Assembly: GCF_004360155.1 (NCBI RefSeq)
Contig: NZ_SAIS01000016.1
Location: 1 to 64,000 of the forward strand
Source of the DNA: Paraglaciecola marina
GTDB lineage: Bacteria; Pseudomonadota; Gammaproteobacteria; Enterobacterales; Alteromonadaceae
Reading direction: 5' to 3'
Length of the DNA: 64,000 nt
The notes below the pieces were generated by a model that did not search any database, was not told the DNA's origin, and saw nothing but the letters and a program-made list of their open reading frames with translations. The translations under genes were made by a program, and so were the position numbers. This document shows positions 35,785 through 50,822 of this stretch, one piece after another; the stretch's first letter is position 1; each line of letters opens with the position of its first letter.

Positions 35785-38616
35785 CTAGGGGTTGTTCACA
35801 ACAAAGCGAACAGCTTCTAAATGTAACTTAGCGTTAGACATAACTTTTTCTAAGTTAATGATTTGCTTGGCAACATGCTCTATTTCATCATCACGAATGG
35901 CAGGGTTAACCTGTTGTAAGCCTTCAAGCCTTGCCAGTTCATCACTCAACAGTTCATTCATTTGAGCGATTCGCTGTGACTTTATAGCCTGCGCACTTTT
36001 TTCTGCATGCTGGTGACTATGCTCTAAACACTTTTCAAGTTGAGACTTTAGAGCATTTATGAGTTGGTTACCCATTTTAGGTAATACTGGATCTAAACGA
36101 GTGAAGTGCTTATCTGTCAGTTGTAAATTCGCATCTACACATACCTTTATCGGAGTGGGTGGTAAAAATCGTGCGAGTTGCAAGCCTTTGTCTGCTTTGG
36201 CTGAAAGTACAAACAAGCATTCTAACCAGTAACTTCCGGCTGGTTTAGATTTATCTTGGCATAAGGCGACAGCGCTTTTTCCAGTGACATCGGTTGTTAA
36301 GATATCCATTGCATGTTGGATCATTGGGTGGTCCCAACTTAAAAAGTGTACATGCTCTAATAGAGTTGCTGTAGGTCTTTCATAGGTAACTGTCATGCCT
36401 TCTTCATCTAGCCCGGGTAAAGGCCCAATCATTTTTTCGGTAGGTTTTAGCAAGTAACAGCTTTCGTCATGTTCTTCTTGAAGAATTCCTAAACTATCAA
36501 ATAACCGTGTCATAAATAACTCTAAGGTAGGCGAGTCTTCAGCGTCGCTAATTTGTGTCAAAAATTGTTCAACCCGCCCATGTCCAGAAGAGTTAAGTTC
36601 TAGTAGTTTGTCGCGGCCTTGTTCTAGACGCTTCTTTAATTCTTTATGAAGTAAGGCTGTTTGGTTTATTAGCTGAAAACACTTATCTGTATTCTCGGGA
36701 TCTTTAATACATTCATGCAACAGCTCTTGGGTTTCTTCATAGACAGTCATACCTGTTGGGCAAGTATGCTCAAAAGCCCCTAATCCTTGGTGATACCAAT
36801 CGAGTAAAACTTGCTGCGCGCTCATATCAAAATAAGGAACATGGATACACACATCATATTTTTGACCAATACGATCTAAACGTCCGATCCTTTGTTCTAA
36901 TAAATCAGGCACTAAAGGTAAATCGAATAAAATTAGATGATGGGCAAATTGAAAGTTTCTGCCTTCACTGCCAATTTCACTACAAATAAGTACCTGTGCA
37001 CCGTCATCAGATTGCGCAAAATAGTTTGCCGCTCTATCACGATCAACTATGCTCATGCCTTCGTGGAATACGGTAGAACGGGTGCCTGCTTTTATCCGTA
37101 AAGCTTCAGATAGTTGCAAAGCCGTACTCGCATTAGCGCATATAGTTAATACCTTTTTACCTTTTAATGACTTTAGCTGAGATATAAACCAGTCTACTCT
37201 TGGATCTATATCTGTCCAGATATTGACTAAGTCAGGGTGCCTTTCAGGGGCAAGCTGTAGTTGGATGTTTTCTGGTTCACTGGCAAGTAAAGTTGCATAT
37301 TCTATTGGCAACCTTAAGCCATGGCTAAAGAGTTGGCGCTTCGGGAAGCCTTTCACCCCAGCTCGGCTGTTTCTAAATAGTAAACGCCCTGTACCATGGC
37401 GGTCTAATAAGGTGTGCAACAGTTTGTTTTTTTGTTTTGTAGATGCCGTATTGATGCCTTGTAGCATGTCCTTATCTGCAAACTGAGCGATAGCTTCGAT
37501 ATCTTCATCAGACAGCGACTCACCTGACAATAATGGGTTAATCGCTTGTGCTAACTGACTGTATTGTTTCTCTTCGTTTACAAAGCTGTGATAATCGTGA
37601 AAACGAGCGGGATCAAGTAGACGTAAACGTGCAAAATGACTTTCGTGGCCAAGCTGATCAGGTGTAGCTGTGAGTAGTAGCACCCCCTTGGTAACTTTAG
37701 CTAGGTCTTCAATCACTTGATACTCTTGAGAAGGCTGTCCTTCTGACCAGGTCAAATGATGGGCTTCATCTACAACCATTAAATCCCACTGCGCTTCTAA
37801 TGCTTGCTGGTAGTAACGACTGTTGTGGGTCAGGAAATCTAAACTACAAATGATTAATTGTTCTGCTTCAAAGGGGTTGCAGGCATCTTCTGCCATGGCT
37901 TCACACCGCTCAGCATCAAACACTGAAAACGCCAAATTGACTCGGCGTAACATTTCTACTAACCACTGATGCACTAAACTTGAAGGTACAACAATTAATA
38001 CTCTTTGGGCTCGCTCTGTAAGTAATTGTTGGTGAATAATTAGGGCTGCTTCAATGGTTTTCCCCAGCCCCACTTCGTCAGCCAATAACACTCTCGGTGC
38101 ATGGCGGCGACCTATTTCGGATGCAATATGTAACTGGTGAGGGATAAGGTCGACTCTAGCACCAACAAAACCTAACAATGGCGAAGTGCTATGGTTGAAT
38201 TGATGGGTTAAACATTGCTCTCTTAAATCAAACCATTTAGGGTCGTCGAATTGACCGTTAAGTAAGCGTTGCTCTGGTTGATTAAGTTGAAAATGATGAT
38301 CTATGAAGGTTTCTTTTAGAATCGCCGCTTCTTGATTATCGGTGCGCTGGCCAACGTAAATAAGTTGTCCGTCGATTTCTTCAACATGCTCAACTACTAA
38401 TTCCCAGCCTTCATGACTCTTTACTGTGTCATCAACAGCAAATTTTATACGGGTGAGTGGCGCGGTTTGTGAAGCATAAACACGACTTTCTCCAGTTGCT
38501 GGAAACAACACTGTCACAGTACGTGTCTCTATTAATACAATGGTCCCTAAGCCTAACTCAGCCTCAGTATCACTGAGCCATCTTTGTCCCAGTGCCAAAT
38601 TATCTTGTTTTGCCAT
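35785..38616 (-). CDS. rapA: RNA polymerase-associated ATPase RapA
   Basis: A 943-residue SWI/SNF-type ATPase that recycles stalled RNA polymerase. N-terminal Tudor-like regions start at 'LGQRWLSDTEAELGLGTIVL'. The ATPase has Walker A 'LADEVGLGKTIEAALI', Walker B 'VVDEAHHLTW', and the helicase C part 'SEIGSEGRNFQFAHHLILFD' and 'LEQRIGRLDRIGQ'. I use the ATG at 38616 because GAGGAT stands 6 bases before it and it leads into the conserved N-terminus; the GTG at 38628 is part of that ribosome site. It is cotranscribed with rluA. Confidence 0.95.
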   Translation of the reverse strand: MAKQDNLALGQRWLSDTEAELGLGTIVLIETRTVTVLFPATGESRVYASQTAPLTRIKFAVDDTVKSHEGWELVVEHVEEIDGQLIYVGQRTDNQEAAILKETFIDHHFQLNQPEQRLLNGQFDDPKWFDLREQCLTHQFNHSTSPLLGFVGARVDLIPHQLHIASEIGRRHAPRVLLADEVGLGKTIEAALIIHQQLLTERAQRVLIVVPSSLVHQWLVEMLRRVNLAFSVFDAERCEAMAEDACNPFEAEQLIICSLDFLTHNSRYYQQALEAQWDLMVVDEAHHLTWSEGQPSQEYQVIEDLAKVTKGVLLLTATPDQLGHESHFARLRLLDPARFHDYHSFVNEEKQYSQLAQAINPLLSGESLSDEDIEAIAQFADKDMLQGINTASTKQKNKLLHTLLDRHGTGRLLFRNSRAGVKGFPKRQLFSHGLRLPIEYATLLASEPENIQLQLAPERHPDLVNIWTDIDPRVDWFISQLKSLKGKKVLTICANASTALQLSEALRIKAGTRSTVFHEGMSIVDRDRAANYFAQSDDGAQVLICSEIGSEGRNFQFAHHLILFDLPLVPDLLEQRIGRLDRIGQKYDVCIHVPYFDMSAQQVLLDWYHQGLGAFEHTCPTGMTVYEETQELLHECIKDPENTDKCFQLINQTALLHKELKKRLEQGRDKLLELNSSGHGRVEQFLTQISDAEDSPTLELFMTRLFDSLGILQEEHDESCYLLKPTEKMIGPLPGLDEEGMTVTYERPTATLLEHVHFLSWDHPMIQHAMDILTTDVTGKSAVALCQDKSKPAGSYWLECLFVLSAKADKGLQLARFLPPTPIKVCVDANLQLTDKHFTRLDPVLPKMGNQLINALKSQLEKCLEHSHQHAEKSAQAIKSQRIAQMNELLSDELARLEGLQQVNPAIRDDEIEHVAKQIINLEKVMSNAKLHLEAVRFVVNNP

Positions 38617-38920: not shown

Positions 38921-40318
38921 ATGCAAAAAAAAGCAGCATTAGATGAAAAAATTTATGTTTTAGATACCAATATTCTCCTCCACGAACCTCTCGCCTTTTT
39001 ATCTTTTAAAGAACACGATGTTGTTGTTCCCATGACAGTCCTCGAAGAGCTCGATTACATTAAAGACAGCAAAAAAGACGTAGCCAGAGACGCTCGAGTT
39101 TCCATAAGAGCGATGGAAGACTTACTTCATGAAGCCACCCCTGAGGAGCTGATGCAAGGTGTTTCTATGAAGGGACTCGGAGCTGGCGAAACTGCCCCTA
39201 CAGGTAAATTATCTATTTTTGTTGACCACGGTATGCCTGTATCTCAGCAGGTCTTTACCAGTAATGAAAATGATAACCGTATTATTAATAGCGCCCTTTA
39301 TTTACAAAAATCACAACATCCGAAGCATATTGTTTTAGTCACTAAAGACATTAACATGAGGCTGAAAGCGAAAGGTGCCGGCCTAGCTCATGTTGAAGAT
39401 TACCGTACCGATCAACTTGTTACCGACATCAAGTATTTATCAAAGGGCTATCACGAATTCCCAGGCAGTTTTTGGGATATGGTTAAGGCAGTGGATAGCC
39501 GAACCGAAGGCCGAGATACAATTCATACTATCGAGAAAAAAATACTGCCAGAAGCATACGTTAACGAGTTTTTAATTGACGAAAATAAGAGTTTTGCAGG
39601 TGTTGTTGAGTCTATTAATGGCGATTACCTTGAAGTACTAGATTTAGGGTTCGACAGATTAATGAGTCACAAGGCTTGGGGCATACACCCTAAAAATATT
39701 GGCCAAGCCATGGGGCTACATGCCTTGCTTGATCCGCATATTGATTTAGTGGTCCTGACAGGGCCAGCGGGAAGTGGTAAAACATTGCTAGCGTTAGCCG
39801 CAGCCTTAGAAATGGTTGTTGAGAAGAACATGTACGATAAGATTATTGTTACTCGAAGTACCCCTGAAATTGCTGAGTCTATTGGTTTCTTACCGGGTAC
39901 CGAAGAGGAAAAAATGGCGCCTTGGCTCGCGGCGATTACTGATTCATTAGAGGTACTCCATAAAAATGATGAAAACACTAAAGGCTCTATGAGTTACATC
40001 ATGGAAAAAGCCAATATACAGTTTAAGTCGGTTAATTTTATGCGTGGCCGTAGTATTCAAAATGCCATTGTTATTTTGGATGAGTCACAAAACCTGACAG
40101 CATCACAGCTGAAAACCATAATTACGCGCTGCGGCGAGGGCACTAAGTTAATTTGTAGTGGTAACTTGGCACAAATCGATAGCAATTACTTAAGTGCGGT
40201 TACTTCTGGTTTAACTTATTTGGTTGAGAAATTTAAAAACTTCTCTGGTAGCGCCACGATAAATCTAGACGGAGTGGTACGTAGTCGCTTGGCAGAGTTT
40301 GCTGAAGAGCAGTTGTAA
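38921..40318 (+). CDS. PIN-PhoH fusion ATPase/ribonuclease (PhoH2 type)
   Basis: A 465-residue protein with an N-terminal PIN nuclease domain ('KIYVLDTNILLHEPLAFL', 'VLEELDYIKDS', 'NDNRIINSALYLQ') and a C-terminal PhoH ATPase domain. The ATPase has Walker A 'LTGPAGSGKTLLALAAALEM', 'GFLPGTEEEKMAPW' and Walker B-like 'AIVILDESQNLTASQLKTII'. PhoH2 proteins couple RNA unwinding with cleavage. The last 98 bases have a diverged second copy at 47635-47732; the two copies bound an accessory module, so the 3' end of this gene was probably a recombination site. Confidence 0.93.
   Translation: MQKKAALDEKIYVLDTNILLHEPLAFLSFKEHDVVVPMTVLEELDYIKDSKKDVARDARVSIRAMEDLLHEATPEELMQGVSMKGLGAGETAPTGKLSIFVDHGMPVSQQVFTSNENDNRIINSALYLQKSQHPKHIVLVTKDINMRLKAKGAGLAHVEDYRTDQLVTDIKYLSKGYHEFPGSFWDMVKAVDSRTEGRDTIHTIEKKILPEAYVNEFLIDENKSFAGVVESINGDYLEVLDLGFDRLMSHKAWGIHPKNIGQAMGLHALLDPHIDLVVLTGPAGSGKTLLALAAALEMVVEKNMYDKIIVTRSTPEIAESIGFLPGTEEEKMAPWLAAITDSLEVLHKNDENTKGSMSYIMEKANIQFKSVNFMRGRSIQNAIVILDESQNLTASQLKTIITRCGEGTKLICSGNLAQIDSNYLSAVTSGLTYLVEKFKNFSGSATINLDGVVRSRLAEFAEEQL
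40221..40318 (+). repeat. Left copy of the phoH 3'-end direct repeat
   Basis: These last 98 bases of phoH match 47635-47732 at 78 positions (my count, no gaps). The first 22 bases (40221-40242) are identical in both. Differences after that are nearly all silent: only one amino acid (Ile/Leu) differs in the last 31 residues. Confidence 0.9.
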
Positions 40319-40392
40319 TATGGGCTGTTATTAAATTATTAGTTTGTGAATATTTTGATTTTTGTGAGGTTTTAAGGATTTTTTTAATTTTA

Positions 40393-40431
40393 CTAGTCCA
40401 GAATTATTCAAATATAATTTTGGACTAATTT
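40393..40431 (+). terminator. Possible terminator after phoH
   Basis: AGTCCA at 40395-40400 pairs with TGGACT at 40421-40426, with partial inner pairing of an AATTAT/ATAATT segment, followed by AATTTTT. The stem is AT-rich and imperfect. Confidence 0.45.
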
Positions 40432-40517
40432 TTGTCGAACCGAATATAAAGTGTTGAGAGATACTCACTCTGATACTTATATCATTGAGAGCAAAATCCT
40501 TTAAACTTTATTGGTTG

Positions 40518-40541
40518 AAAATAGTGCAGTCGTACTATTTT
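40518..40541. promoter_or_regulatory. TetR-type operator, left site (O1)
   Basis: An imperfect palindrome: left half AAAATAGTGCAG (40518-40529) and right half TCGTACTATTTT (40530-40541), with outer arms AAAATAGT/ACTATTTT perfectly inverted. It matches the site at 41259-41282 in all but four positions over 26 bases, including a trailing GG. It lies downstream of the tetR 3' end (20 bases), not before any gene that reads right. Confidence 0.65.
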
Positions 40542-40560
40542 GGTGAGGAGTATTATTCTT

Positions 40561-41229
40561 TTAAGTTAAATGTGCTTCTTTGATAATGTAAATAGCCGAA
40601 GCGTAAGTCATTTTAATCGTTTTATCACAACTGCTTGCGTACTTTTTATCGTGTCCAATAAAAATAGCGTGACCTTCAATAGTAGAAGAAATAAATAAAG
40701 CTATAGAATCGGCTGTTTCCTTATCTATTTTGGGGTTTATTTGTTGCGCGATTTCTGCATAAATTTTGCGATATTCTTCGTACATATGTTGTACTAGGGC
40801 GTCAACATTTTCGTCGTGATTTGATAGAGACCACAATTCAGGAAAGAACCGAGTTGTTTCGAAAGTGGTTAAGTCCTTAACAACATATTGAATAACCTCG
40901 TAGAGGTAATCTTCAGGGCATCCTACTGTGTATTTAAGAGATTCTATTGTAAGTAAGTATTCACCAATTACACTCTTTAGCATAGCGTCAAATAATTCAT
41001 TCTTTGTGGCAAAATAGTGCTGTAAATTCCCAACGGATATACCAACTTTTTTAGCTACTTTGCGAAAAGAGAAGTTTGTATATCCCTCTTCAATAATTAG
41101 CATTCTAGTGGTATCAATTATTTTTTTTTGCTTTTCTACCCCAGCTTTATATGAGCCTCTTTTTTGGCCGTTGTTTTTGTTATCTATCATTAATTCAATT
41201 GTTATCCGGTTAATTGTTTTACTTAACAT
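40561..41229 (-). CDS. TetR/AcrR family transcriptional regulator
   Basis: A 222-residue repressor-type protein. The N-terminal DNA-binding domain (residues ~27-80) reads 'KKIIDTTRMLIIEEGYTNFS' then the helix-turn-helix 'FRKVAKKVGISVGNLQHYFA' and 'TKNELFDAML'. The C-terminal ligand domain ends 'SIALFISSTIEGHAIFIGHD'. The ATG at 41229 is preceded by AGGA. It is divergent from the TonB receptor and the aau operon and flanked by two near-identical palindromes, so it most likely controls that operon and itself. The ligand might be an aromatic amine or its aldehyde, by context only. Confidence 0.88.
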   Translation of the reverse strand: MLSKTINRITIELMIDNKNNGQKRGSYKAGVEKQKKIIDTTRMLIIEEGYTNFSFRKVAKKVGISVGNLQHYFATKNELFDAMLKSVIGEYLLTIESLKYTVGCPEDYLYEVIQYVVKDLTTFETTRFFPELWSLSNHDENVDALVQHMYEEYRKIYAEIAQQINPKIDKETADSIALFISSTIEGHAIFIGHDKKYASSCDKTIKMTYASAIYIIKEAHLT

Positions 41230-41258
41230 TTCATCCTAGTTTACAAGTCTAAATCTAT

Positions 41259-41282
41259 AAAATAGTACAGTTGTATTGTTTT
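41259..41282. promoter_or_regulatory. TetR-type operator, right site (O2), tetR-TonB intergenic
   Basis: Left half AAAATAGTACAG (41259-41270) and right half TTGTATTGTTTT (41271-41282), followed by GG. It lies between tetR (start 41229) and the TonB receptor (start 41368), where a repressor would block both promoters. Similarity to the site at 40518-40541 is 22 of 26 bases. Confidence 0.7.
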
Positions 41283-41367
41283 GGCCTAATGTTTGCTATT
41301 TGATTTGTGAAAGCGTGCAAAGCATCTTTTGGACTTCACATAAATAAACACACTTGGGGGCGACAAA

Positions 41368-43617
41368 ATGAATAAAAATAATATTGTAGCAGCTCTTAGC
41401 TTGCTTATCTCTGGGCAAAGTTTAGCACAGGCTGAACAAGAGCAAGCCTCAGAAGGTGGGGCTGATTCCGTTTTTGAAGCAATAACAGTGGTTGCGCAAA
41501 AGCGTACGCAAAGTATACAAGATGTAGGGATTGCAATTACTGCTCTTAATGGTGACCAATTAGAGGCGTTAGGTTTTGACAATGCTCAACAAGTCACAGC
41601 AATGGCGCCTGGTGTGCAAACTGTACAACCTAATGGTGAGGCCAATTATTCTATTGGTATACGGGGAGTTACTAATTCAGATTTTACCACTAATGTTGAA
41701 AGCCCGGTGGCGTTATACACTGATGAGGTATACATAAGTCAAATGTCAGGCGCAGGTTTTAGTTTGTTTGATTTAGAACGAGTAGAAATACTGCGTGGAC
41801 CTCAAGGCACTTTATTTGGTCGAAATGCCACTGGCGGTTTGGTGCATTATCTTACAAAAAAGCCAACTTTCTATCTTGATGGATATGCAAAATTAACATT
41901 AGGATCTCATAATCAGCGTACGTTAGAAGGAGCTATTAGTAACGAGATAACAGACAAATTAGCAGCTCGCGTATCTATCAACGCCAACTTTGCAGATGGT
42001 TATGTTGAAAACCGTTATACAGGTGACAAGCTGAATAACGCCAATGATAAGACTGCTAGGGTACAATTTCTTTATACCCCTACTGATGATGTTGAAGCTT
42101 TATTAAATTTTCGCTATTCAGTACAAGATATAGATACTGGTTTCTTTGAAAATGTAAGTTCAATAAGAACAGGGGAGCTAACCCCAGATGAGTTCAATCC
42201 AGTTTTAGAATACATAGATAATGACGGCGATGTGTATGCCGGTGACTATGATGACCCAGGCTTTAATGAGCTAGAAACAAACGGGGCAACTGCAACAGTA
42301 AAATGGGACATTAATGACGATCTAAAATTTGTTTCTATCACTGATGTATCAAACGTTGATCGGACTTATATTGAAGACAGTGATGCATCGCCTGTCCCCC
42401 TGTTTAATTTCTTTCTGACGACGGATGCTAAACAATTCTCTCAAGAGCTTAGGTTTGAAGGTACTGTAGATGACCTTTTATGGGTTGCCGGCGGATATTA
42501 TTTAGATTTAGATATTAATGATTCAAATGGGGCCATTAGTGAGCCCTTTATTGGTGGTGGCGGTACCACTGTAGCTGGTAGTGAAGGTGGTTTATACAAT
42601 CCCTATGTGTCTACCTTAGAGTCTACCTCTGCATTTGCTCAAATAGAATATCCGTTGAGTGAGCAACTTGAGTTAATTGCGGGCCTACGTTTTATTCGAG
42701 ATGAGAAGTCATTTGATTTTAGCGTTAATGCAGTTGAATTTTTGGATCCTTCGTCAGAACCAGGCTTTGCTAGTGCAGATAATTTAGTTTTACAGGCCGA
42801 GTTAGGTGCTTATGAAGATACCCGTGAAGATACTGAGATCGCAGGACGATTACAGTTCAACTGGAAGGTCAATGATAGCACCCTTACTTATGCTAGCTGG
42901 AATCGTGGCGTGAAAGGTGGAGGGTACAACGCACCTATCTTTCCTTTAACAGCGCCAAATGGATATGACGACGCCACCTTGTCTTATGAGCCAGAACAAT
43001 TAGACGCTTATGAGATTGGCTTGAAAATGGATGTAGCTGATTTAGGGCGTTTGAACCTTGCCGCTTATTACTATGATTATGAAGATTATCAAGTATTCAA
43101 TATCATAGGCTTGGACTCTATCACCATCAACTCCCCAGAATCAACAGCAAGTGGTTTCGAGGCTGAATTTCAAGGGCAATTAACTGAAAACTTTGGTTTG
43201 TTATTAGGTGCGGCTTATAACGATGCAGAAGCGACACTTGCTGATGGCGTCACTACAACAAGACCAGTGCAATCACCAGAGTGGAACCTTAATGGTTTAC
43301 TACGTTATGAGGTCCCTCTTAGTTCAGGTTATATCGCCATTCAAGGTGACTTTGTTTACCGAGATGACGTGAAGTTTTCACTTGTAGAAGCTGAAACTGT
43401 CCAACAACAAGCTTACACCCTGTTCAACGCCTCTATTTCTTACACCACTGATGATCAGCTTTGGCAGATAAGGGCTTTTGTTAACAACCTAACCGATGAA
43501 GAGTACATAGTTCAAGCATTTGACCTGTCTGGCACTGATGTATTTGGCATGACAGAGCAATACTACGGTAAGCCACGCTGGGCTGGTGTGTCTGTCAAAT
43601 ATAGTTTCATGGACTAA
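41368..43617 (+). CDS. TonB-dependent outer-membrane receptor
   Basis: A 749-residue receptor. A signal peptide ('IVAALSLLISGQSLAQA') is followed by a TonB box-like segment ('FEAITVVAQKR') and the plug domain ('QSIQDVGIAITALNGDQLEA', 'ILRGPQGTLFGRNATGGLVH'). The rest is a 22-strand barrel ending 'PRWAGVSVKYSFMD'. It is preceded by GGGGG and lies 56 bases before aauB in the same direction. It belongs to the large, diverse marine receptor group, not clearly to siderophore or vitamin receptors. Its place in the operon suggests it brings in the amine source, or a metal or cofactor for the enzyme; both are inferences. Confidence 0.92.
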   Translation: MNKNNIVAALSLLISGQSLAQAEQEQASEGGADSVFEAITVVAQKRTQSIQDVGIAITALNGDQLEALGFDNAQQVTAMAPGVQTVQPNGEANYSIGIRGVTNSDFTTNVESPVALYTDEVYISQMSGAGFSLFDLERVEILRGPQGTLFGRNATGGLVHYLTKKPTFYLDGYAKLTLGSHNQRTLEGAISNEITDKLAARVSINANFADGYVENRYTGDKLNNANDKTARVQFLYTPTDDVEALLNFRYSVQDIDTGFFENVSSIRTGELTPDEFNPVLEYIDNDGDVYAGDYDDPGFNELETNGATATVKWDINDDLKFVSITDVSNVDRTYIEDSDASPVPLFNFFLTTDAKQFSQELRFEGTVDDLLWVAGGYYLDLDINDSNGAISEPFIGGGGTTVAGSEGGLYNPYVSTLESTSAFAQIEYPLSEQLELIAGLRFIRDEKSFDFSVNAVEFLDPSSEPGFASADNLVLQAELGAYEDTREDTEIAGRLQFNWKVNDSTLTYASWNRGVKGGGYNAPIFPLTAPNGYDDATLSYEPEQLDAYEIGLKMDVADLGRLNLAAYYYDYEDYQVFNIIGLDSITINSPESTASGFEAEFQGQLTENFGLLLGAAYNDAEATLADGVTTTRPVQSPEWNLNGLLRYEVPLSSGYIAIQGDFVYRDDVKFSLVEAETVQQQAYTLFNASISYTTDDQLWQIRAFVNNLTDEEYIVQAFDLSGTDVFGMTEQYYGKPRWAGVSVKYSFMD

Positions 43618-43673
43618 TTAATTGTTGCGCACAAGTGTACGTGCCAACACCATTTTAAATAGGAGTGTAATAA

Positions 43674-44828
43674 ATGAATAATAGACTGCTAAAAATAGTA
43701 TCAGCGTTGGCCTTTGCGAGTTTGTCGTTGTTGGTAAATGCCGAGCTTAAACCAGAGCCTATACCGAGTGTCACTCAGTTACCTGCTGATTACCCCGATT
43801 CTTGGATTTTTGCTCACGATGCTAATTTTCATGCATTAATTTCCGGCAAAGTAGCCATTATAGATGTAGCAGCCGACACCAATGAATATAAGGGGTTTGT
43901 GGATGCGGCGATGATGGCGAGTTTTGTTGAATCAGAAAAGCGTTCAAAACTTTATGTAGGCGAAACATTTTATTCCCGTGGAACCCAAGGTGATAAAACT
44001 GATGTTTTGTCCATTTACGATAAATCCACCTTATTGAAAACCAAAGAGATTATTCTACCTAAGGCTAATCGCGGTCAGATGGTTTCAAGTAAGTATATGA
44101 TGCAGTTGGTTAATGATGAGAAGTACTTATTATTATTGGCCTTCACGCCTGCTTCTTCTGTGATTGTAATAGACACCAAAACCGAAGAGATCATAAGCGA
44201 AATTCCTATTCCGGGTTGTAATTTAATTTACCCAGCAGGTAAGTCTGGTTTTGCTTCTCTGTGTGGTAATGGTGGTCTGAAATCCGTGCAATTCGATGAG
44301 AAGGGCGAAGTAATTGTTCGCTACGATATTGATTCATTCTTCAGTGTTGACGACGATCCACTCTTTGATAAGCCGGTTTACATAGGCTCTACCGCATACT
44401 TTATGTCATACAAGAGTCGTGTTCAGCCTATCGATATGTCAAAAGATAGGCCAATATTATTACCCGCATGGTCTCTTGTGACGGATGAAGAAATGAAAGA
44501 GAACTGGCGTCCGGGTGGTTGGCATTTCGCTGCGTCTGATAACAAGCGACTTCTGTATGTAGTTATGCATAAAAATGGTTATAACGGCAGCCATAAATTT
44601 GGTGGAGAAGAAGTCTGGGTATTTAACACCACTACTCATAAAAGAGTTAAGCGTATTATCCTGAAAAACAACGCGTTTTCAATTGAAGTCACAAAATCGA
44701 AAACGCCTTTATTAGTCGTCAACAACGTATCCATGACCTTAGATGTATACAGTGTCGACGGTGAATTCCAGCGTAATATTACCGTTAGTGATACAGCTAT
44801 GCCGATTGTATTGCACAGTGGGAAATAA
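43674..44828 (+). CDS. aauB: Aromatic (aralkyl) amine dehydrogenase, heavy subunit
   Basis: A 384-residue periplasmic protein with a signal peptide ('SALAFASLSLLVNA'). The rest has beta-propeller-like repeats and matches the amine dehydrogenase large subunit family (MauB/AauB): 'PDSWIFAHDANFHALISGKV', 'AMMASFVES', 'ETFYSRGTQGDKTDVLSIYD', 'KEIILP', and the late 'WRPGGWHFAAS' and 'GGEEVWVFNTTTHKRVKRI'. The heavy chain does not carry the cofactor; it shapes the active site with the light chain. It is followed at 2 bases by aauE. AADH rather than methylamine dehydrogenase is chosen because of the light chain. Confidence 0.88.
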   Translation: MNNRLLKIVSALAFASLSLLVNAELKPEPIPSVTQLPADYPDSWIFAHDANFHALISGKVAIIDVAADTNEYKGFVDAAMMASFVESEKRSKLYVGETFYSRGTQGDKTDVLSIYDKSTLLKTKEIILPKANRGQMVSSKYMMQLVNDEKYLLLLAFTPASSVIVIDTKTEEIISEIPIPGCNLIYPAGKSGFASLCGNGGLKSVQFDEKGEVIVRYDIDSFFSVDDDPLFDKPVYIGSTAYFMSYKSRVQPIDMSKDRPILLPAWSLVTDEEMKENWRPGGWHFAASDNKRLLYVVMHKNGYNGSHKFGGEEVWVFNTTTHKRVKRIILKNNAFSIEVTKSKTPLLVVNNVSMTLDVYSVDGEFQRNITVSDTAMPIVLHSGK

Positions 44829-44830
44829 CC

Positions 44831-45394
44831 ATGGAAAACGAACTTCTAAATATTATTAACCTCGCAAGTATTAGTTTTTTACTGACATTGGTACTGGTTA
44901 CTGCAGTACACAAAATCAAGCAGCCACATAAGTTTAAAAAAATACTCCTAGACTACGAGATTTTACCGGTTCAGTTAACGTTAAAACTAGCCAAGCTAGT
45001 ACCTTTTGTTGAGTTGGGTGTAATAGCAACGACTATCATTGCTTTTGCTTTATCGCTGCCACTCGTCAGCTTTAGCGTATTACTAGTTTTATACGGCGCA
45101 TATACCGGCATCATCCTTTTTGCATGGTTGAAAAAACGCTCATTACTGGATTGTGGATGTTCGATGAGCACTTCGGTAGTGGCAGTATCTCCGAAGTACT
45201 TATTGGTGCGTAATTTAGCGTTAATGCTGCTGGTTGGGGTGTATTACGTAACGGCACAACAAACGGCTTTTACATTGGGACAATGGCTAGTAGGACTTGC
45301 CATATCCTGTTTTGTATTTATCGCATATAGCAGCCTAGAAGGGCTGGTTGAGAATCAAAGTTTAATAAATAAATTGAAGGTGAAACATGACTAA
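44831..45394 (+). CDS. aauE: MauE/AauE membrane protein for amine dehydrogenase maturation
   Basis: A 187-residue protein with about five membrane segments. A Cys-Gly-Cys (Cys108, Cys110) stands in 'RSLLDCGCSMS' at a membrane border. MauE homologues are needed, with MauD, for export or disulfide formation of the cysteine-rich light chain. It overlaps aauD by 8 bases and follows aauB by 2, so the order B-E-D-A is the same as in known mau and aau operons. Confidence 0.85.
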   Translation: MENELLNIINLASISFLLTLVLVTAVHKIKQPHKFKKILLDYEILPVQLTLKLAKLVPFVELGVIATTIIAFALSLPLVSFSVLLVLYGAYTGIILFAWLKKRSLLDCGCSMSTSVVAVSPKYLLVRNLALMLLVGVYYVTAQQTAFTLGQWLVGLAISCFVFIAYSSLEGLVENQSLINKLKVKHD

Positions 45395-45989
45395 TTTACT
45401 AATTATTTCAAATATATTGCTGTGGGTGACTGTATTAATTTTCGCTGTCATCATATTTGCTCTTATCCGTCAAATTGGCGTCCTGTATGAGCGTATTGCT
45501 CCCGCAGGTGCATTGTCTGTAAACCAACAGTTGAAAGTTGGGCAGGTCGCTCCTGAATTAGATGTTATTAATCAATTGACCCAACAAAGTCTGCATATTG
45601 CAGGGACATCGTCGCTGCGTAAAAGCCAGCTTTTATTCTTTGTATCCCCTACTTGTCCCGTTTGTAAATCACTCATTCCTATTGCTAAGTCTATTAGTAA
45701 AGATGAGCAAAGTTGGGTTGACTTAATTTTTGCCTCAGACGGAGAAGAGTCAGCCATTTCATCTTTCATCGAGCAACAAAAACTCGAGCAAGCTAACTTC
45801 GTTAACTCCGAGTTACTTGGCAAAACATATGGTGTTGCCAAGCTGCCTTATGCCGTCCTGATTGATGAAGATGGTACGTTGCAAGCAATGGGAATTGTTA
45901 ATTCTCGCGAACACATAGAAAGCTTGTTTAATGTCAAAGAGACTGGTTATGCCAGCCTTCAAGAATATATGCATAAAAACTTTGCTTAA
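45387..45989 (+). CDS. aauD: MauD/AauD thioredoxin-like protein for light-chain disulfides
   Basis: A 200-residue protein anchored by one N-terminal membrane segment ('ILLWVTVLIFAVIIFALI') with a periplasmic thioredoxin fold. The redox pair is Cys90-Pro-Val-Cys93 in 'FFVSPTCPVCKSLIP'; 'VAKLPYAVLIDEDG' holds the cis-Pro region. MauD proteins help form the many disulfides of the amine dehydrogenase light chain. It is 10 bases before aauA. Confidence 0.88.
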   Translation: MTNLLIISNILLWVTVLIFAVIIFALIRQIGVLYERIAPAGALSVNQQLKVGQVAPELDVINQLTQQSLHIAGTSSLRKSQLLFFVSPTCPVCKSLIPIAKSISKDEQSWVDLIFASDGEESAISSFIEQQKLEQANFVNSELLGKTYGVAKLPYAVLIDEDGTLQAMGIVNSREHIESLFNVKETGYASLQEYMHKNFA

Positions 45990-45999
45990 GGAGAGTTAG

Positions 46000-46548
46000 A
46001 TGAAATTTTTAGAGAAATTAATTGAGAAAAGCTCTCGAAAAGTAGCCCAGAATACATCTCGTCGGCACCTACTAACTCAGCTTTCCAAAGTCATGATTGG
46101 TGTCGCTGCGGTCCCATTATTACCTGTGGCTAGAGCAAGTGAGGGGCCTACAAATGGTTACCCTGGTGTGGGTAAACAAACTTCAGGGCTTGACGGAGAT
46201 CCGGGCGACCCAACTAGCTGTGATTATTGGCGTTACTGCGCTATTGATGGGTTTTTATGTTCATGTTGCGGTGGAAGTGCCACAAGCTGTCCACCAGGTA
46301 CAGAAATGTCGCCTATTACTTGGATAGGAACATGTCTGAATCCGGCTGACGGCAAGAACTACATCATTTCTTACAATGACTGTTGTGGTAAGACCAGTTG
46401 TGGACGCTGCTTATGTAACCGTAACGAGAACGATAAACCTATGTATCGGCCCCAAGCCAATAATGATATTAATTGGTGTTTAGGAACAAGCAGTTCTGTT
46501 TATACATGTTCTACGGGTGTCTTGTTGGGAGTTGCTGTTGATGAATAA
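46000..46548 (+). CDS. aauA: Aromatic amine dehydrogenase light subunit (TTQ-bearing)
   Basis: A 182-residue precursor. The long N-terminus has a Tat-type signal ('TSRRHLLTQLSKVMIGVAAV') ending near residue 46. The mature part has 14 cysteines, e.g. 'SCDYWRYCAIDGFLCSCCGG' and 'YNDCCGKTSCGRCLCN'. The tryptophans that form tryptophan tryptophylquinone are, by alignment from memory, Trp108 ('SPITWIGTC') and Trp159 ('NNDINWC'); the catalytic acids are Asp83 and Asp127. The pattern FLCSCCGG and DCCGKTSCGRC fits aromatic amine dehydrogenase better than methylamine dehydrogenase. The enzyme oxidises primary amines to aldehydes and ammonia in the periplasm. Its stop overlaps the next gene by 8 bases. 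Confidence 0.92.
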   Translation: MKFLEKLIEKSSRKVAQNTSRRHLLTQLSKVMIGVAAVPLLPVARASEGPTNGYPGVGKQTSGLDGDPGDPTSCDYWRYCAIDGFLCSCCGGSATSCPPGTEMSPITWIGTCLNPADGKNYIISYNDCCGKTSCGRCLCNRNENDKPMYRPQANNDINWCLGTSSSVYTCSTGVLLGVAVDE

Positions 46549-47023
46549 GTTTTGCAAGGCATTATCTGTCGTTTTGGTTAATGCACTTGTCTGTGCTTCA
46601 TTTCAATTGGCGGCACAGCCTACATCTGAGTTGGGGAAACAAACATTTAATACTTGCTCAGTTTGTCATTTACCCACTGGGGAAGGTGTGCCAGGTAGCT
46701 TTCCTACCCTAAGAAAAGTGACATTGGTTGCTGAGCAGGAAGGCGGTAAGGAATACCTGATGAGTGTAGTATTACAAGGTTTGAGTGGCCAAATTAAATC
46801 AAATGGTGCTACTTACTTTGGATACATGCAGGGGTTCGCCGCTTCTTTTACAGATAAGCAAGTTGCAGCGGTCCTTAATTATGTACTGACAGATCTTGCT
46901 GAAGAGAAACTCCAAAAAGAAGACGTTATCTCTGAGTCTGATGTAGCTATTGTCCGTAATAAAATTAAGGAAGGTCATTGGCCTAAAAGTAGTGTGCTCA
47001 GAAAAAATTTAGCCATGCCTTAA
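46541..47023 (+). CDS. Periplasmic monohaem cytochrome c, first
   Basis: A 160-residue protein with a signal peptide ('ALSVVLVNALVCASFQLAAQ') and one haem site, Cys39-x-x-Cys42-His43 in 'FNTCSVCHLPTGEG'. The probable distal ligand is Met in 'YFGYMQGFAASF'. I take the ATG at 46541 because it overlaps the aauA stop by 8 bases and leads straight into the signal peptide; a longer reading from 46517 lacks support. Amine dehydrogenases pass electrons to a small copper protein or cytochrome; no azurin or amicyanin gene is nearby, so this cytochrome may be the acceptor. Confidence 0.85.
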   Translation: MNKFCKALSVVLVNALVCASFQLAAQPTSELGKQTFNTCSVCHLPTGEGVPGSFPTLRKVTLVAEQEGGKEYLMSVVLQGLSGQIKSNGATYFGYMQGFAASFTDKQVAAVLNYVLTDLAEEKLQKEDVISESDVAIVRNKIKEGHWPKSSVLRKNLAMP

Positions 47024-47057
47024 CGGGCTGGTTATTTTCACCAAGAAGAGGTCATAA

Positions 47058-47480
47058 ATGGATAAAATGAAACTGTTTGTTTTAGTTTGGATAGTAATCA
47101 TATTAAGTTCAATCAGTGTTTGCGGTTTTAGTAACGAATATGCTGACGCGAAGACAAATTACATGCTGCAATGTCAAGGCTGTCATCAAGCAACGGGGAC
47201 AGGTATGCCTCCTGTTACTCCCGATATTAGCGAATATGGAGAGGACTTTTTAAGTTTTGAAGATGGTCGAGCCTATTGGATAAGTGTTCCTGGCGCATCA
47301 AATTCCCCTCTTTCTGATAAAGCACTAGCTGGAGTACTTAATTACATGTCTCACGAGCTACTTGGTCTTGAAAGTGCAGTACTTTTTACTGAGCTAGAGG
47401 TAGCTAAGCACAGAGCAACGAAGGTTAGGGATGTTTATGAATTACGGTTAGCGTTAATAACTCAACTTGCTAATAAGTAA
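47058..47480 (+). CDS. Periplasmic monohaem cytochrome c, second
   Basis: A 140-residue protein with a signal peptide ('LFVLVWIVIILSSISVCGFS') and one haem site, Cys39-x-x-Cys42-His43 in 'LQCQGCHQATGTGMPP'. The fold resembles the previous cytochrome ('LAGVLNYMSHEL' against 'VAAVLNYVLTDL'), so the pair probably arose by duplication. It is 34 bases downstream. Known aau clusters include a small monohaem cytochrome after aauA; two in tandem may form a relay. It is the last gene of the operon. Confidence 0.83.
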   Translation: MDKMKLFVLVWIVIILSSISVCGFSNEYADAKTNYMLQCQGCHQATGTGMPPVTPDISEYGEDFLSFEDGRAYWISVPGASNSPLSDKALAGVLNYMSHELLGLESAVLFTELEVAKHRATKVRDVYELRLALITQLANK

Positions 47481-47634
47481 ACTTTTTGTGGAGAGGTTAT
47501 ATTGTTAGGGCATATGAGTCCTGTGTAACTCGATGACGTTGGCTTTGTTAGCCTGATATAGATTTCGTGTTCTTTACTAGGTAACTGGGGGAGTGGTAGA
47601 GCATGACTTGCTGTAGCTGCCACATTATAAAAGG
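47481..47634. other. Short non-coding stretch before the phoH remnant
   Basis: After the cytochrome stop there is GGAGAGG (47490-47496) and a short reading TTG...TAA of eight codons, possibly the start of a gene cut off at the module end. No terminator is obvious. Nothing else is recognised. Confidence 0.3.
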
Positions 47635-47732
47635 TGGTTGAGAAATTTAAAAACTTTTCAGGCAGTGCCACATTGAATTTAGATGGGGTGGTAAGAAGTA
47701 GATTAGCTGAGTTTGCTGAAGAACAATTATAG
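47635..47732 (+). pseudogene. 3'-end fragment of a second phoH gene (right repeat copy)
   Basis: This stretch encodes 'VEKFKNFSGSATLNLDGVVR' and 'SRLAEFAEEQL' then a TAG at 47730-47732. It is the same tail as the complete phoH at 38921-40318, with one residue changed and about 20 silent base changes. There is no upstream phoH sequence, so it is a truncated copy. The synonymous differences say it came from a functional, related gene and not from recent duplication in place. Confidence 0.9.
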
Positions 47733-47849
47733 TTTACCCTACCAAAAATAAAGTCCGTTAACATAGCCAGCTGTGTTCTCGGGCCTTCTAATTGTCATTT
47801 TTAATTAATGACATTCACATTTACTCTGTAACGTCTTAAAGGTAATTAT

Positions 47850-48734
47850 ATGCGCTTGCGTCACATAGAAGTGTTTCATGCTATATATACAACGGGCTCC
47901 ATTACAAATGCTGCTAATTTATTAAGTGTATCGCAACCTTCTGTCAGTAAAGTTTTGACCCACGCAGAACTACAGCTTGGTTTTAATTTATTTGAAAGAG
48001 TTAAAGGTAGGCTAATTCCAACAGATGAAGCTGAGATACTATTTAACGAAGTGGATAAAATTTATAAGCAAATTCATTCCATAAGAAACTTATCTCATAA
48101 TATCAAAAAGTCTCAATTTGGTAATATCACTTTGGGCATTACTCCAGCATTGGGGTTTGATGTTATTCCTGATGTGATTGCAAATTATCACCGAGATTTT
48201 CCAAATGTAAGTTTTAACATTCAAACTATTCACAACAATGCAGTGATGCAATCTTTAGTAGAGTATAAATGCGACCTAGGAATATTATTTTCGCCGAGCA
48301 CTATGCCTTCTATTGTCACCACTCCACTAGCTCAGTCTGAGTTAGTGATTGTTTACCCAAAGCAAGTATTCCCTGATTGTCCTGATAAACTAAGCCTTGC
48401 CGATGTGAGTAATATGGAATTTATTGATATAAGGGATAGTGGCCCATTAGGTGAGATGTTTTTGGCTCGAATATTAGAAGAAGATATTGAGTTTAAGTCT
48501 TCAATTAATGTGCAAACTTATTTTATTGCCGTTCGGCTAGTGGCCCGAGGATTAGGCGTTTGTGTGGTAGACCGTTCCACTGCACAAGGCAACTTAACCG
48601 ATAACATATCTATCGCTTCATTTGACCCACCACTAACCTTCGACATTAAAGCTGTACATTTAGAAAGCCAAAACAAAACAAAATTAATCGATGAGTTTTT
48701 ACCTTATTTATTACAAGGTATTTCAAATATTTAA
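47850..48734 (+). CDS. LysR-family regulator, probable regulator of dgcN
   Basis: A 294-residue LysR protein. The N-terminal helix-turn-helix is 'AIYTTGSITNAANLLSVSQP' followed by 'SVSKVLTHAELQLGFNLFER'. The effector domain begins near residue 95 ('FGNITLGITPALGFDVIPDV'). It lies 125 bases upstream of dgcN in the same direction. In marine Alteromonadales a LysR protein (DgcR) controls D-glutamate catabolism genes; the context suggests the same job here. It is the first complete gene after the accessory module. Confidence 0.85.
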   Translation: MRLRHIEVFHAIYTTGSITNAANLLSVSQPSVSKVLTHAELQLGFNLFERVKGRLIPTDEAEILFNEVDKIYKQIHSIRNLSHNIKKSQFGNITLGITPALGFDVIPDVIANYHRDFPNVSFNIQTIHNNAVMQSLVEYKCDLGILFSPSTMPSIVTTPLAQSELVIVYPKQVFPDCPDKLSLADVSNMEFIDIRDSGPLGEMFLARILEEDIEFKSSINVQTYFIAVRLVARGLGVCVVDRSTAQGNLTDNISIASFDPPLTFDIKAVHLESQNKTKLIDEFLPYLLQGISNI

Positions 48735-48859
48735 AACGTTTAAACCCACCTATAGCCTTAAGTTATGAGCTACAAAAACTTTGTTACTTTTATTATCAAA
48801 GTGCTCCATTACACTGCATGCAAAACTTCAAGCCCTTCTCTTTTTCTTTGGACATTAAT

Positions 48860-49861
48860 ATGAAAATTGTTACTCCTTATTTACTATTCATTGGTGATGC
48901 AACCGATCAACTTGCTATAAAAATGGCTCGAGGTGTCGCTACTTGGAGGCCTGAGCTATGTATAGGTGAATTCAGTGTAAGTGGTTGCACTGTAACTACT
49001 GGCATGGAGCAAATGACAATTCAACAAGGAGCTGAAAATGGCGCTAAATCATTCATTTTGGGGTTCGCTAATAGTGGCGGAGTGCTAGATAAAAAGTGGG
49101 TGCCTTATATTTTAGAAGCCATGGACGCAGGTATGGATATTGTGTCTGGCTTACATCAAAAACTAAGTGATATTCCTGAGCTTGTTGAAAAATCACAGCT
49201 GACTAAAAGAGCACTTTTAGATATTCGTCATCCTCAACAGAACTTTGCCACTGGCACTGGTGTGAAACGTTCCGGTAAACGTCTACTTACTGTAGGGACA
49301 GACTGTTCTGTGGGAAAAATGTACACCTCGTTAAGTATCGAAAAATCAATGCAAAAATTAGGAGTTGATGTTGACTTTCGAGCTACTGGCCAATGCGGAA
49401 TCTTGATTGCCGGTCAAGGCTTAGCGGTTGATTGCGTGATTTCAGACTTTATTTCTGGCGCTTCAGAGTCACTTTCGCCAGAGAATAGTGCAGACCATTG
49501 GGATGTAATTGAAGGGCAAGGATCATTGTCTCACCCTGCTTTTGCGGGCGTAAGTTTGGGGCTGCTACATGGGTCACAACCGGATGCGTTAGTGATATGT
49601 CATGCGTTAAATCGTAGTCATATGAGAGGGCTTCCAAGTAGTCAATTCCCGAGTATTGAGACAACCATAGCATTAAACCTGCAAGCCGCTAGATTGACTA
49701 ATCCAGATGTTAAGGTGGTAGGTCTTGCGGTAAACACATCCAGCGTAAGTGAAGATGAGGGTAAACAAATATGTGCAGAGCTTAGCAAAAAGTTTGACTT
49801 ACCTTGTGTTGATCCATTACGTGATGGTGCAGATAGTATTGTGCAAGCTTTATTGGTCTAA
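48860..49861 (+). CDS. dgcN: DUF1611 protein, DgcN-like D-glutamate N-acetyltransferase
   Basis: A 333-residue protein of the DUF1611 family. 'TPYLLFIGDATDQLAIKMAR' starts the N-terminal domain; a P-loop-like motif 'TVGTDCSVGKMYTSLSIEKS' and 'DFRATGQCGILIAGQGLAVD' are characteristic. I prefer the ATG at 48860; the upstream ATG at 48818 adds 14 non-conserved residues. DgcN has been described as acetylating D-glutamate before DgcA oxidises it. Here no dgcA follows: the next gene is convergent, 4 bases away. Confidence 0.8.
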   Translation: MKIVTPYLLFIGDATDQLAIKMARGVATWRPELCIGEFSVSGCTVTTGMEQMTIQQGAENGAKSFILGFANSGGVLDKKWVPYILEAMDAGMDIVSGLHQKLSDIPELVEKSQLTKRALLDIRHPQQNFATGTGVKRSGKRLLTVGTDCSVGKMYTSLSIEKSMQKLGVDVDFRATGQCGILIAGQGLAVDCVISDFISGASESLSPENSADHWDVIEGQGSLSHPAFAGVSLGLLHGSQPDALVICHALNRSHMRGLPSSQFPSIETTIALNLQAARLTNPDVKVVGLAVNTSSVSEDEGKQICAELSKKFDLPCVDPLRDGADSIVQALLV

Positions 49862-49865
49862 GTGT

Positions 49866-50822
49866 TTAAAGTACGACTTCATGGGTGAACATACGTGACG
49901 CTAAGTCTCTAGCACTACTAGTGGATATTTCTGAAAGCGGCATATTGGCAGGTCCAGTTGGTTCCATCAAAGTGTAATCAACCCCTTCAATTTCATAGGT
50001 TTTTTCTGATGGCCTAAAGGGGAGTTTTATTCCTAGTAGTGCATGGTTGGGGAGATAAACCATTACCATTTTTATATCTGGTAATAGTGCTCGTACCAAA
50101 CTTCCCATGAGCACACTTTTGCTATCGCAATCTCCTTTATTATTCGCTATGACTGACAATGGGGGCAGGTAACCGGCTCCATTTGAAGTCATGCGGTCTT
50201 GAAGTTCGTCATAGGGAATACTTTGAACCCAGCTCAGTAACAAGCTGATGTAATCTCGTGAATCGCTATTCTCAGGCACCATTTCATAAATCGCCTGCGC
50301 AATGGGAAGTAGCGAGGCTTTATTTTCATTAATGTATCGCAAATGGTCTGGTTTAACAGCTTCTTGCCCTAAATATGACTGAAAGCGGCTGTAGTAATTA
50401 TCATTGAGATATTGGTCAAATGCTGATTCTTGGCTTTTTGCCATAGACTGACGCCACTTTCTTAACAGTTTATCAGAGCGACTTTTTACATTTACCTGAA
50501 TATCTTGACCTGTTTTTTTTATTTGAACCCGAGCCTCTCGTGGGTCAATTTTACGGGCTTCTTTATGTAATTCTATGTATACATATTGTTGTGCTAAGTC
50601 AGGAACAAAGCGTTTGTGATTCTTTACATTGAATTGTTTGGAGGCTAGCCTGAAGTTAATTTCAGAAGTTTGTTTTAATTCATCATCCCAGCGATAATGG
50701 AACAAAGTTTCAGCCCCATCTTTGGTTTTGCTAAATGCTGTTTGTTTACCATGCAAGGGCATAGAGAGAAATAATATAAGAATAAACAGGCTATTACCTA
50801 GTTTGTAAGTATCTTTACACAT
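49866..50822 (-). CDS. Secreted transglutaminase-like protein
   Basis: A 318-residue protein with a signal peptide ('LFILILFLSMPLHG') and a C-terminal transglutaminase-like fold: the nucleophile Cys is in 'NNKGDCDSKSVLMGSLVRAL', the His in 'YLPNHALLGIKL', and an acid follows in 'LMEPTGPAN'. The N-terminal half has no family I recognise. Such proteins are often periplasmic peptidases or inactive scaffolds rather than cross-linking enzymes. It is convergent with dgcN. Confidence 0.7.
   Translation of the reverse strand: MCKDTYKLGNSLFILILFLSMPLHGKQTAFSKTKDGAETLFHYRWDDELKQTSEINFRLASKQFNVKNHKRFVPDLAQQYVYIELHKEARKIDPREARVQIKKTGQDIQVNVKSRSDKLLRKWRQSMAKSQESAFDQYLNDNYYSRFQSYLGQEAVKPDHLRYINENKASLLPIAQAIYEMVPENSDSRDYISLLLSWVQSIPYDELQDRMTSNGAGYLPPLSVIANNKGDCDSKSVLMGSLVRALLPDIKMVMVYLPNHALLGIKLPFRPSEKTYEIEGVDYTLMEPTGPANMPLSEISTSSARDLASRMFTHEVVL

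Follow-up and report, generated by a model that had tools for sequence, protein, structure and literature searches.

The second copy of the phoH 3′ end in Paraglaciecola marina probably marks the place where imported amine-dehydrogenase genes are joined to the chromosome. The window, a 64,000-nt stretch of this genome, contains an intact phoH (38921–40318, + strand) encoding a 465-residue protein with a PIN domain and a PhoH ATPase domain (PF13638, PF02562). The last 98 bases of the gene (40221–40318, + strand), located by a longest-repeat search and alignment, are present again at 47635–47732 as 32 codons and a stop, on the same strand and 7,414 bp away, in a copy that we read as displaced. 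Segments 40221–40317 and 47635–47731 are 80% identical and form the longest direct repeat between positions 38500 and 49500. The two tails share 78 of 98 aligned bases, comprising all of the first 22 and 56 of the following 76, in agreement with the coordinates and the 20 differences given in the original prediction. The differences are nearly all silent, as also predicted: they fall 4, 0 and 16 times at the first, second and third codon positions, and the 17 altered codons (of 32) include a single non-synonymous change (Ile to Leu). As third positions account for 16 of the 20 differences and a single residue is changed, both tails were recently under selection as phoH ends, and one of them came from another lineage.

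A chance repeat is ruled out by the E-value of the second copy in the 4.64-Mb genome (2.4e-19), by its rank as the longest repeat and by the silent divergence. No third copy is found in the genome at E up to 1. The left edge of the right tail (47635) is sharp: similarity to phoH ends at once upstream and is not above chance in the preceding 12–60 nt (P 0.15–0.69). An extension of the tail to codon 424, one of the recurrent break sites described below, was considered and set aside (P 0.15 at 33 nt, chance level). A stop just upstream in the phoH frame shows that the right tail does not terminate another forward gene, a case that had been named as contrary to the prediction; a mechanically called 100-residue frame on the reverse strand (47462–47764) overlaps the tail. 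By eye, the 22-bp block at the start of the repeat shows an imperfect inverted repeat. The block is conserved in the genus, with relatives agreeing with the right tail at 16–20 of its 22 positions, and complete identity is shared by 3 of 148 pairs of relatives whose tails have diverged to a similar extent (50–60 of 76). Given this conservation, the 22-nt identity appears only mildly unusual. Over the remaining 76 bases, the left tail is closest to that of L051 (66 of 76) and the right tail to those of L042, L040 and L044 (61 of 76), with the values of other relatives overlapping in both cases. A mosaic test, which has little power without a closer relative, gives −2.9 for the left tail and +2.2 for the right, with 14 relatives spanning −4.6 to +6.9.

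The DNA between the tails begins with a TetR-family regulator (40561–41229, − strand; PF00440) and a TonB-dependent receptor (41368–43617, + strand; PF00593, PF07715). These are followed by aauBEDA (43674–46548, + strand; PF06433, PF07291, PF02975), encoding the amine dehydrogenase heavy chain, MauE, a thioredoxin-like protein that scores just under the PF13905 cutoff, and the light chain. The module ends with two small genes (46541–47480, + strand) that had been described as two cytochromes; the first is a cytochrome c (PF00034), whereas the second has no Pfam match. Two other genomes, G118 and G013, carry the aau module in the same gene order, including tetR and both small genes, at a location away from phoH. 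A pair of 24-nt inverted repeats (40518–40541 and 41259–41282) flanks tetR, each arm containing a AGTNNNANT-type palindrome, and this pair is a possible candidate for a TetR operator. To the right of the second tail are LysR and dgcN (47850–49861, + strand; DUF1611, assigned by Pfam) and a conserved gene with no Pfam match at 0.001 (49866–50822, − strand) that closes the variable interval. The predicted lack of an integrase is borne out by a Pfam scan of the 10 proteins between phoH and the conserved gene, which returns no recombinase (one protein has no match of any kind). Comparison with proteins from the island loci described below also yields no recombinase in this interval, the matches being weak and confined to the TonB receptor. 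No island ends were recognised by eye in the window.

The phoH locus was compared in 22 genomes of the genus, the window genome and 21 relatives. The gene is full-length or nearly so in 19 of the relatives and broken in two, one of which (G006) is seen only to the contig end. Upstream, the distance from rapA to phoH could be measured in 19 of 20 loci (18 relatives and the window) and is 208–514 bp in these. Downstream, the conserved gene follows in 16 of the 19 relatives with intact phoH, at a distance of about 50 bp to 7.1 kb; five relatives are alike, with an interval of ~0.9 kb. In two others the conserved gene was not found over 13.6 and 15.1 kb, and the contig of the remaining one ends ~0.4 kb after phoH. 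The stretches downstream of phoH in the 19 relatives (0.4 to ~17 kb) contain no match to the aau, cytochrome or dgcN proteins, and three of them contain weak matches to the TonB receptor (27%) and LysR (21%). The comparison of the phoH-to-LysR interval that had been proposed thus confirms a variable interval but finds neither LysR-dgcN nor a second phoH tail in the relatives' stretches, some of them short. The contrary case of close relatives all sharing the same genes at this locus is likewise not observed, for aau or for LysR-dgcN.

The amine-dehydrogenase genes, found at phoH in none of the 19 relatives with an intact gene, are imported as predicted. LysR-dgcN had been taken as the native flank and is instead peculiar to the window genome here: dgcN is present in 8 of the 21 relatives, always elsewhere and never adjoining phoH, with LysR adjoining it in five of the six loci inspected. 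We read LysR-dgcN as a second import at the same place. Because aau and dgcN are not beside phoH in the relatives and are present elsewhere, the segment 40319–49865 contains two imports with the second phoH tail between them.

Our preferred reading, to which we assign a probability of about 0.5, is that the module came joined to the 3′ end of a relative's phoH and that recombination anchored in phoH brought it in, with the older tail left on its far side. The amine-dehydrogenase module would have arrived attached to the 3′ part of the donor gene. On one side, homologous recombination within phoH would have kept the gene whole and given it a new 3′ end; on the other side, the incoming DNA would have been joined near codon 434 of the old phoH copy. 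The last 98 nt of the older gene would thereby remain beyond the import, next to the DNA already downstream (LysR-dgcN and the conserved gene). What is seen directly is the repeat with its sharp edge and silent divergence, the variability of the place, and other genomes in which a detached phoH end accompanies a whole phoH; from this we infer a joint arrival of the module and the left tail, a greater age of the right tail and an illegitimate right join. The original prediction had the right tail as the foreign copy. The data do not support this assignment: in G212 and probably in G350 (described below) it is the right-hand tail that was displaced, and the clade test gives overlapping values.

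The import reading is favoured by the detached tails of the window and of other genomes, which start at different codons, as illegitimate joins would. Against it, the 22 identical bases fit a crossover at that position better than an illegitimate join. Moreover, no donor was found: phoH was not seen beside aauB in the 13 other genomes with aauB among 295 searched, and three intergenic stretches, each searched against 295 genomes, have no good match (for the left stretch only short matches of 29–49 nt in 10 other genomes, for the two others none). Illegitimate recombination anchored by homology is also rare, and the non-homologous join usually involves 3–10 bp of microhomology, according to the available text of PMC3240628.

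The foremost alternative, which we consider possible but unlikely, is site-specific integration. The phoH 3′ end would be the attachment site of a non-autonomous element, with the crossover in the 22-bp block; the gene would be restored with the tail carried by the element, and the recombinase would act in trans or have been lost. Attachment at the 3′ end of a protein gene is a likeness to SGI1 at trmE. Islands such as SGI1 keep the target gene whole. In the available descriptions these islands use an integrase, whereas the window has none among the 10 proteins scanned and no end recognised by eye, and its two tails have diverged. Site-specific integration would account for the full match of the first 22 bases (shared by 3 of 148 comparable pairs) and for the inverted repeat seen there by eye, and in the family phoH is struck at several further positions by islands with tyrosine recombinases. 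However, a phoH break at codon 434 is present in no other genome among the 49 re-searched genomes and 47 loci described below, and islands inserted elsewhere in phoH carry a second PhoH (36 of 37 genomes, among the matches listed) and do not restore the gene. Viral contigs contain no close phoH tail; seven loci were found there, all 38–49% identical.

The predicted role of phoH as an insertion hot spot is supported and extends to several points inside the gene, where the elements of relatives carry recombinases. A 52-residue phoH tail was searched against 395 genomes of the family and is present in 376, mostly as one match each among the matches listed. A set of 49 genomes, chosen for extra, short-framed or weak tail matches, was re-searched with the whole protein, and at least 37 of them have a phoH that lacks part of its 3′ side (G006 at a contig end). 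As these come from a chosen subset, 37 of 395 is a lower bound for split phoH. Among the matches listed, 36 of the 37 split-phoH genomes have a second full PhoH (38–42% identical) on the same contig, within 0.5 kb in 34 of the 36; a shorter PhoH paralogue used as a control keeps an open frame of at least 334 residues in 35 of 35. The island PhoH proteins of 10 other islands are 70–94% identical to that of the G322 island, as if brought to replace the split gene. This similarity holds across different sites and recombinase modules (L076:1989–3386 and other islands). A scan of named genomes with the island PhoH identified 53 loci, of which 30 are of Colwellia, Glaciecola or Pseudoalteromonas type; Shewanella, Idiomarina, Ferrimonas and Vibrio are also represented. 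After four distant and two partial loci were dropped, 47 remained, some in genomes that overlap the 49-genome set. A phoH piece lies upstream of the island PhoH in 34 of the 47 (two pieces are short), ending at codon 288 in 16, at codon 385–386 in seven and at codon 425 in three; the other 13 have no such piece within reach. A literature search judged by titles and abstract openings returned no report of phoH as an integration site.

The cut points recur within the phoH ATPase domain at codon 288 (site A), ~codon 327 (site B), codon 386 (site C) and codon 424–425 (site D), with a fifth right-hand start near codon 412 in G150 and G047. Sites A and C correspond to what we take to be the Walker A and Walker B motifs, respectively. 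The islands split the target and have inverted ends with a shared core of ~5–6 bp, as judged by eye. These ends are alike at each site, with some variation between genomes: GGTATTA...TAATACC at site A, CAACCCCGAATTG...CAATTCGGGG at site C and TACCCCATTC...GAATGGGGTA at site D. At most sites, recombinase genes are located at the right island end, beside the displaced tail. Module A consists of c8, c12 and c7, of which c8 and c7 reach the PF00589 cutoff and c12 has no Pfam match. It is found wholly or partly at seven of nine site-C ends (c8-c12-c7 in six, c8 alone at the seventh, which is cut by a contig end), at three of four site-D ends and at both ends near codon 412. Module B, with two large proteins, a RecD2-like helicase and a protein whose Phage_int_SAM_1 match stays under the Pfam cutoff, is found at eight of nine site-A ends, in seven of them within 0.2 kb of the tail. 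Neither module occurs within ~20 kb of the site-B right ends (four of four genomes) or in G212. Cargo genes c2 and c4, common among the islands, were considered as restriction genes and rejected as such; in the one island scanned, that of G322, they are two metal-efflux-type genes encoding CusB-like and AcrB-family proteins.

Eight of nine site-A ends carry, near the phoH tail, a six-gene terminal module (L079:6761–17100, L081) encoding proteins of 1090, 789, 234, 147, 743 (RecD2-like) and 467 residues. The 147-residue protein weakly matches the VPA1267 family and the 789-residue protein has an H..R pattern followed by GH..Y; the module is possibly an undescribed tyrosine-recombinase system.

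An older island scar is a somewhat less likely explanation of the window than site-specific integration. An island at one of the known sites would have displaced the tail, phoH would have been repaired with the allele of a relative, the island would have been lost or replaced by the amine-dehydrogenase genes, and the tail would have been trimmed to codon 434. The best reading of G212 is a history of this kind. This genome has a whole phoH and, 54 kb further along, a tail of 137 codons that agrees with it at 409 of 411 nt. Immediately before this tail stands a sequence that closely resembles the right end of site B in six other genomes; the tail would have been displaced by an island and the gene later made whole by recombination. 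G350 probably has the same history, with an island at site C. It has a whole phoH that looks mosaic (the body nearest L183, the tail nearest L175) and, on another contig, an 83-codon tail (224 of 249 nt) that lies ~3 kb before the conserved gene and starts at site C with part of a site-C end, read by eye. The genus also includes the two species with a broken phoH mentioned above. The window tail, on the other hand, starts at no known site, the 60 nt upstream of it match neither phoH nor, by eye, the island ends, and no island gene remains in the window. Because the tails of G212 and G350 begin at island sites, they support displacement as such and not the way of joining proposed for the window.

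Other detached gene ends accompany phoH in this family. G064 has a decayed phoH tail 413 bp downstream of a whole phoH. In G047, where phoH is split by an island, a 57-nt identical copy of the gene end lies beyond a 1.44-kb insert (L160:6675–8173) with one 378-residue frame and no integrase seen, a small case resembling the window. G095 was set aside as a further two-tail case, as its second tail is at a contig end.

A broader reading, which we hold as doubtful and rank below the island scar, is that phoH is a many-site landing place for unrelated recombinase systems and that the window is a recombinase-free cassette exchanged at codon 434. It would apply to marine Alteromonadales and their neighbours, with island PhoH copies and repeated allelic repair keeping phoH alive; the cassette would bring its own phoH end and be moved in trans by the recombinases of phoH islands. 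In-place tandem duplication followed by divergence, to which the shared strand and gene end would conform, is very improbable, as the 20 differences are nearly all silent with the frame intact and unrelated DNA separates the copies; the original prediction had also discounted it.

The import reading has a counterpart at T6SS effector and Rhs loci, where homology-facilitated illegitimate recombination is the proposed route by which old 3′ parts come to lie behind an import anchored in the conserved 5′ side (PMC5361080, in its available portions). On the import reading, the window would share the conserved upstream anchor, the new 3′ end and the old 3′ part downstream; it also has no integrase. 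It differs in that the phoH product is hardly changed, the cargo is metabolic and there is one displaced tail and not an array.

The available portions of PMC10214605 and PMC5385486 describe SE and GInt elements with a four-gene terminal set that includes tyrosine recombinases, a split attB, inverted ends and a 6-bp spacer, with Tfp and Srap or GinC and GinD among their characteristic proteins; the main texts of the two papers contain no occurrence of phoH. The phoH islands of relatives resemble these elements, as far as described there, in that one end carries tyrosine-recombinase genes, the ends are inverted and a short core, read by eye, is shared; module A resembles them in plan. The islands likewise have four terminal genes, c8, c12 and c7 together with a small fourth gene, c36 or c30; the similarity of c36 to c30 is the sole signal in a comparison of recombinase-family profiles, in which the alignments are shallow. 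An H..R pattern with a later H and Y is conserved in the third island gene and not in the second, and this H..R..H..Y arrangement hints at the SE order. The phoH islands differ from the SE and GInt elements described in bringing a second PhoH gene, and the window has none of the genes of these elements and no recognised ends.

Known kinds of recombination most likely left the scar seen in the window; more surprising is its setting, in which islands cut a conserved gene at several motifs and carry a further copy of that gene. The 98-bp repeat is a likely marker of a foreign operon that entered the chromosome without an integrase of its own. Elsewhere in the family, at least two recombinase systems cut phoH at conserved ATPase motifs and bring a further copy of it, which raises the questions of what makes PhoH a target and whether losing it does harm; both are testable. 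The comparison also suggests caution where a gene end is duplicated next to imported DNA, as the copy may be a remnant of allelic repair and not an attachment site.

Two further features were observed at the island junctions. Some loci have the left junction at one site and the right junction at another, A and C in L033 and L034 (G008) and C and codon 412 in L075 (G150), a pattern suggestive of recombination between islands inserted at different points of phoH. In three site-C islands (L076:640–2007, L072 and L073), the truncated host phoH reads into ~68–70 island codons and its frame overlaps the start of the second phoH, an arrangement that suggests translational coupling.
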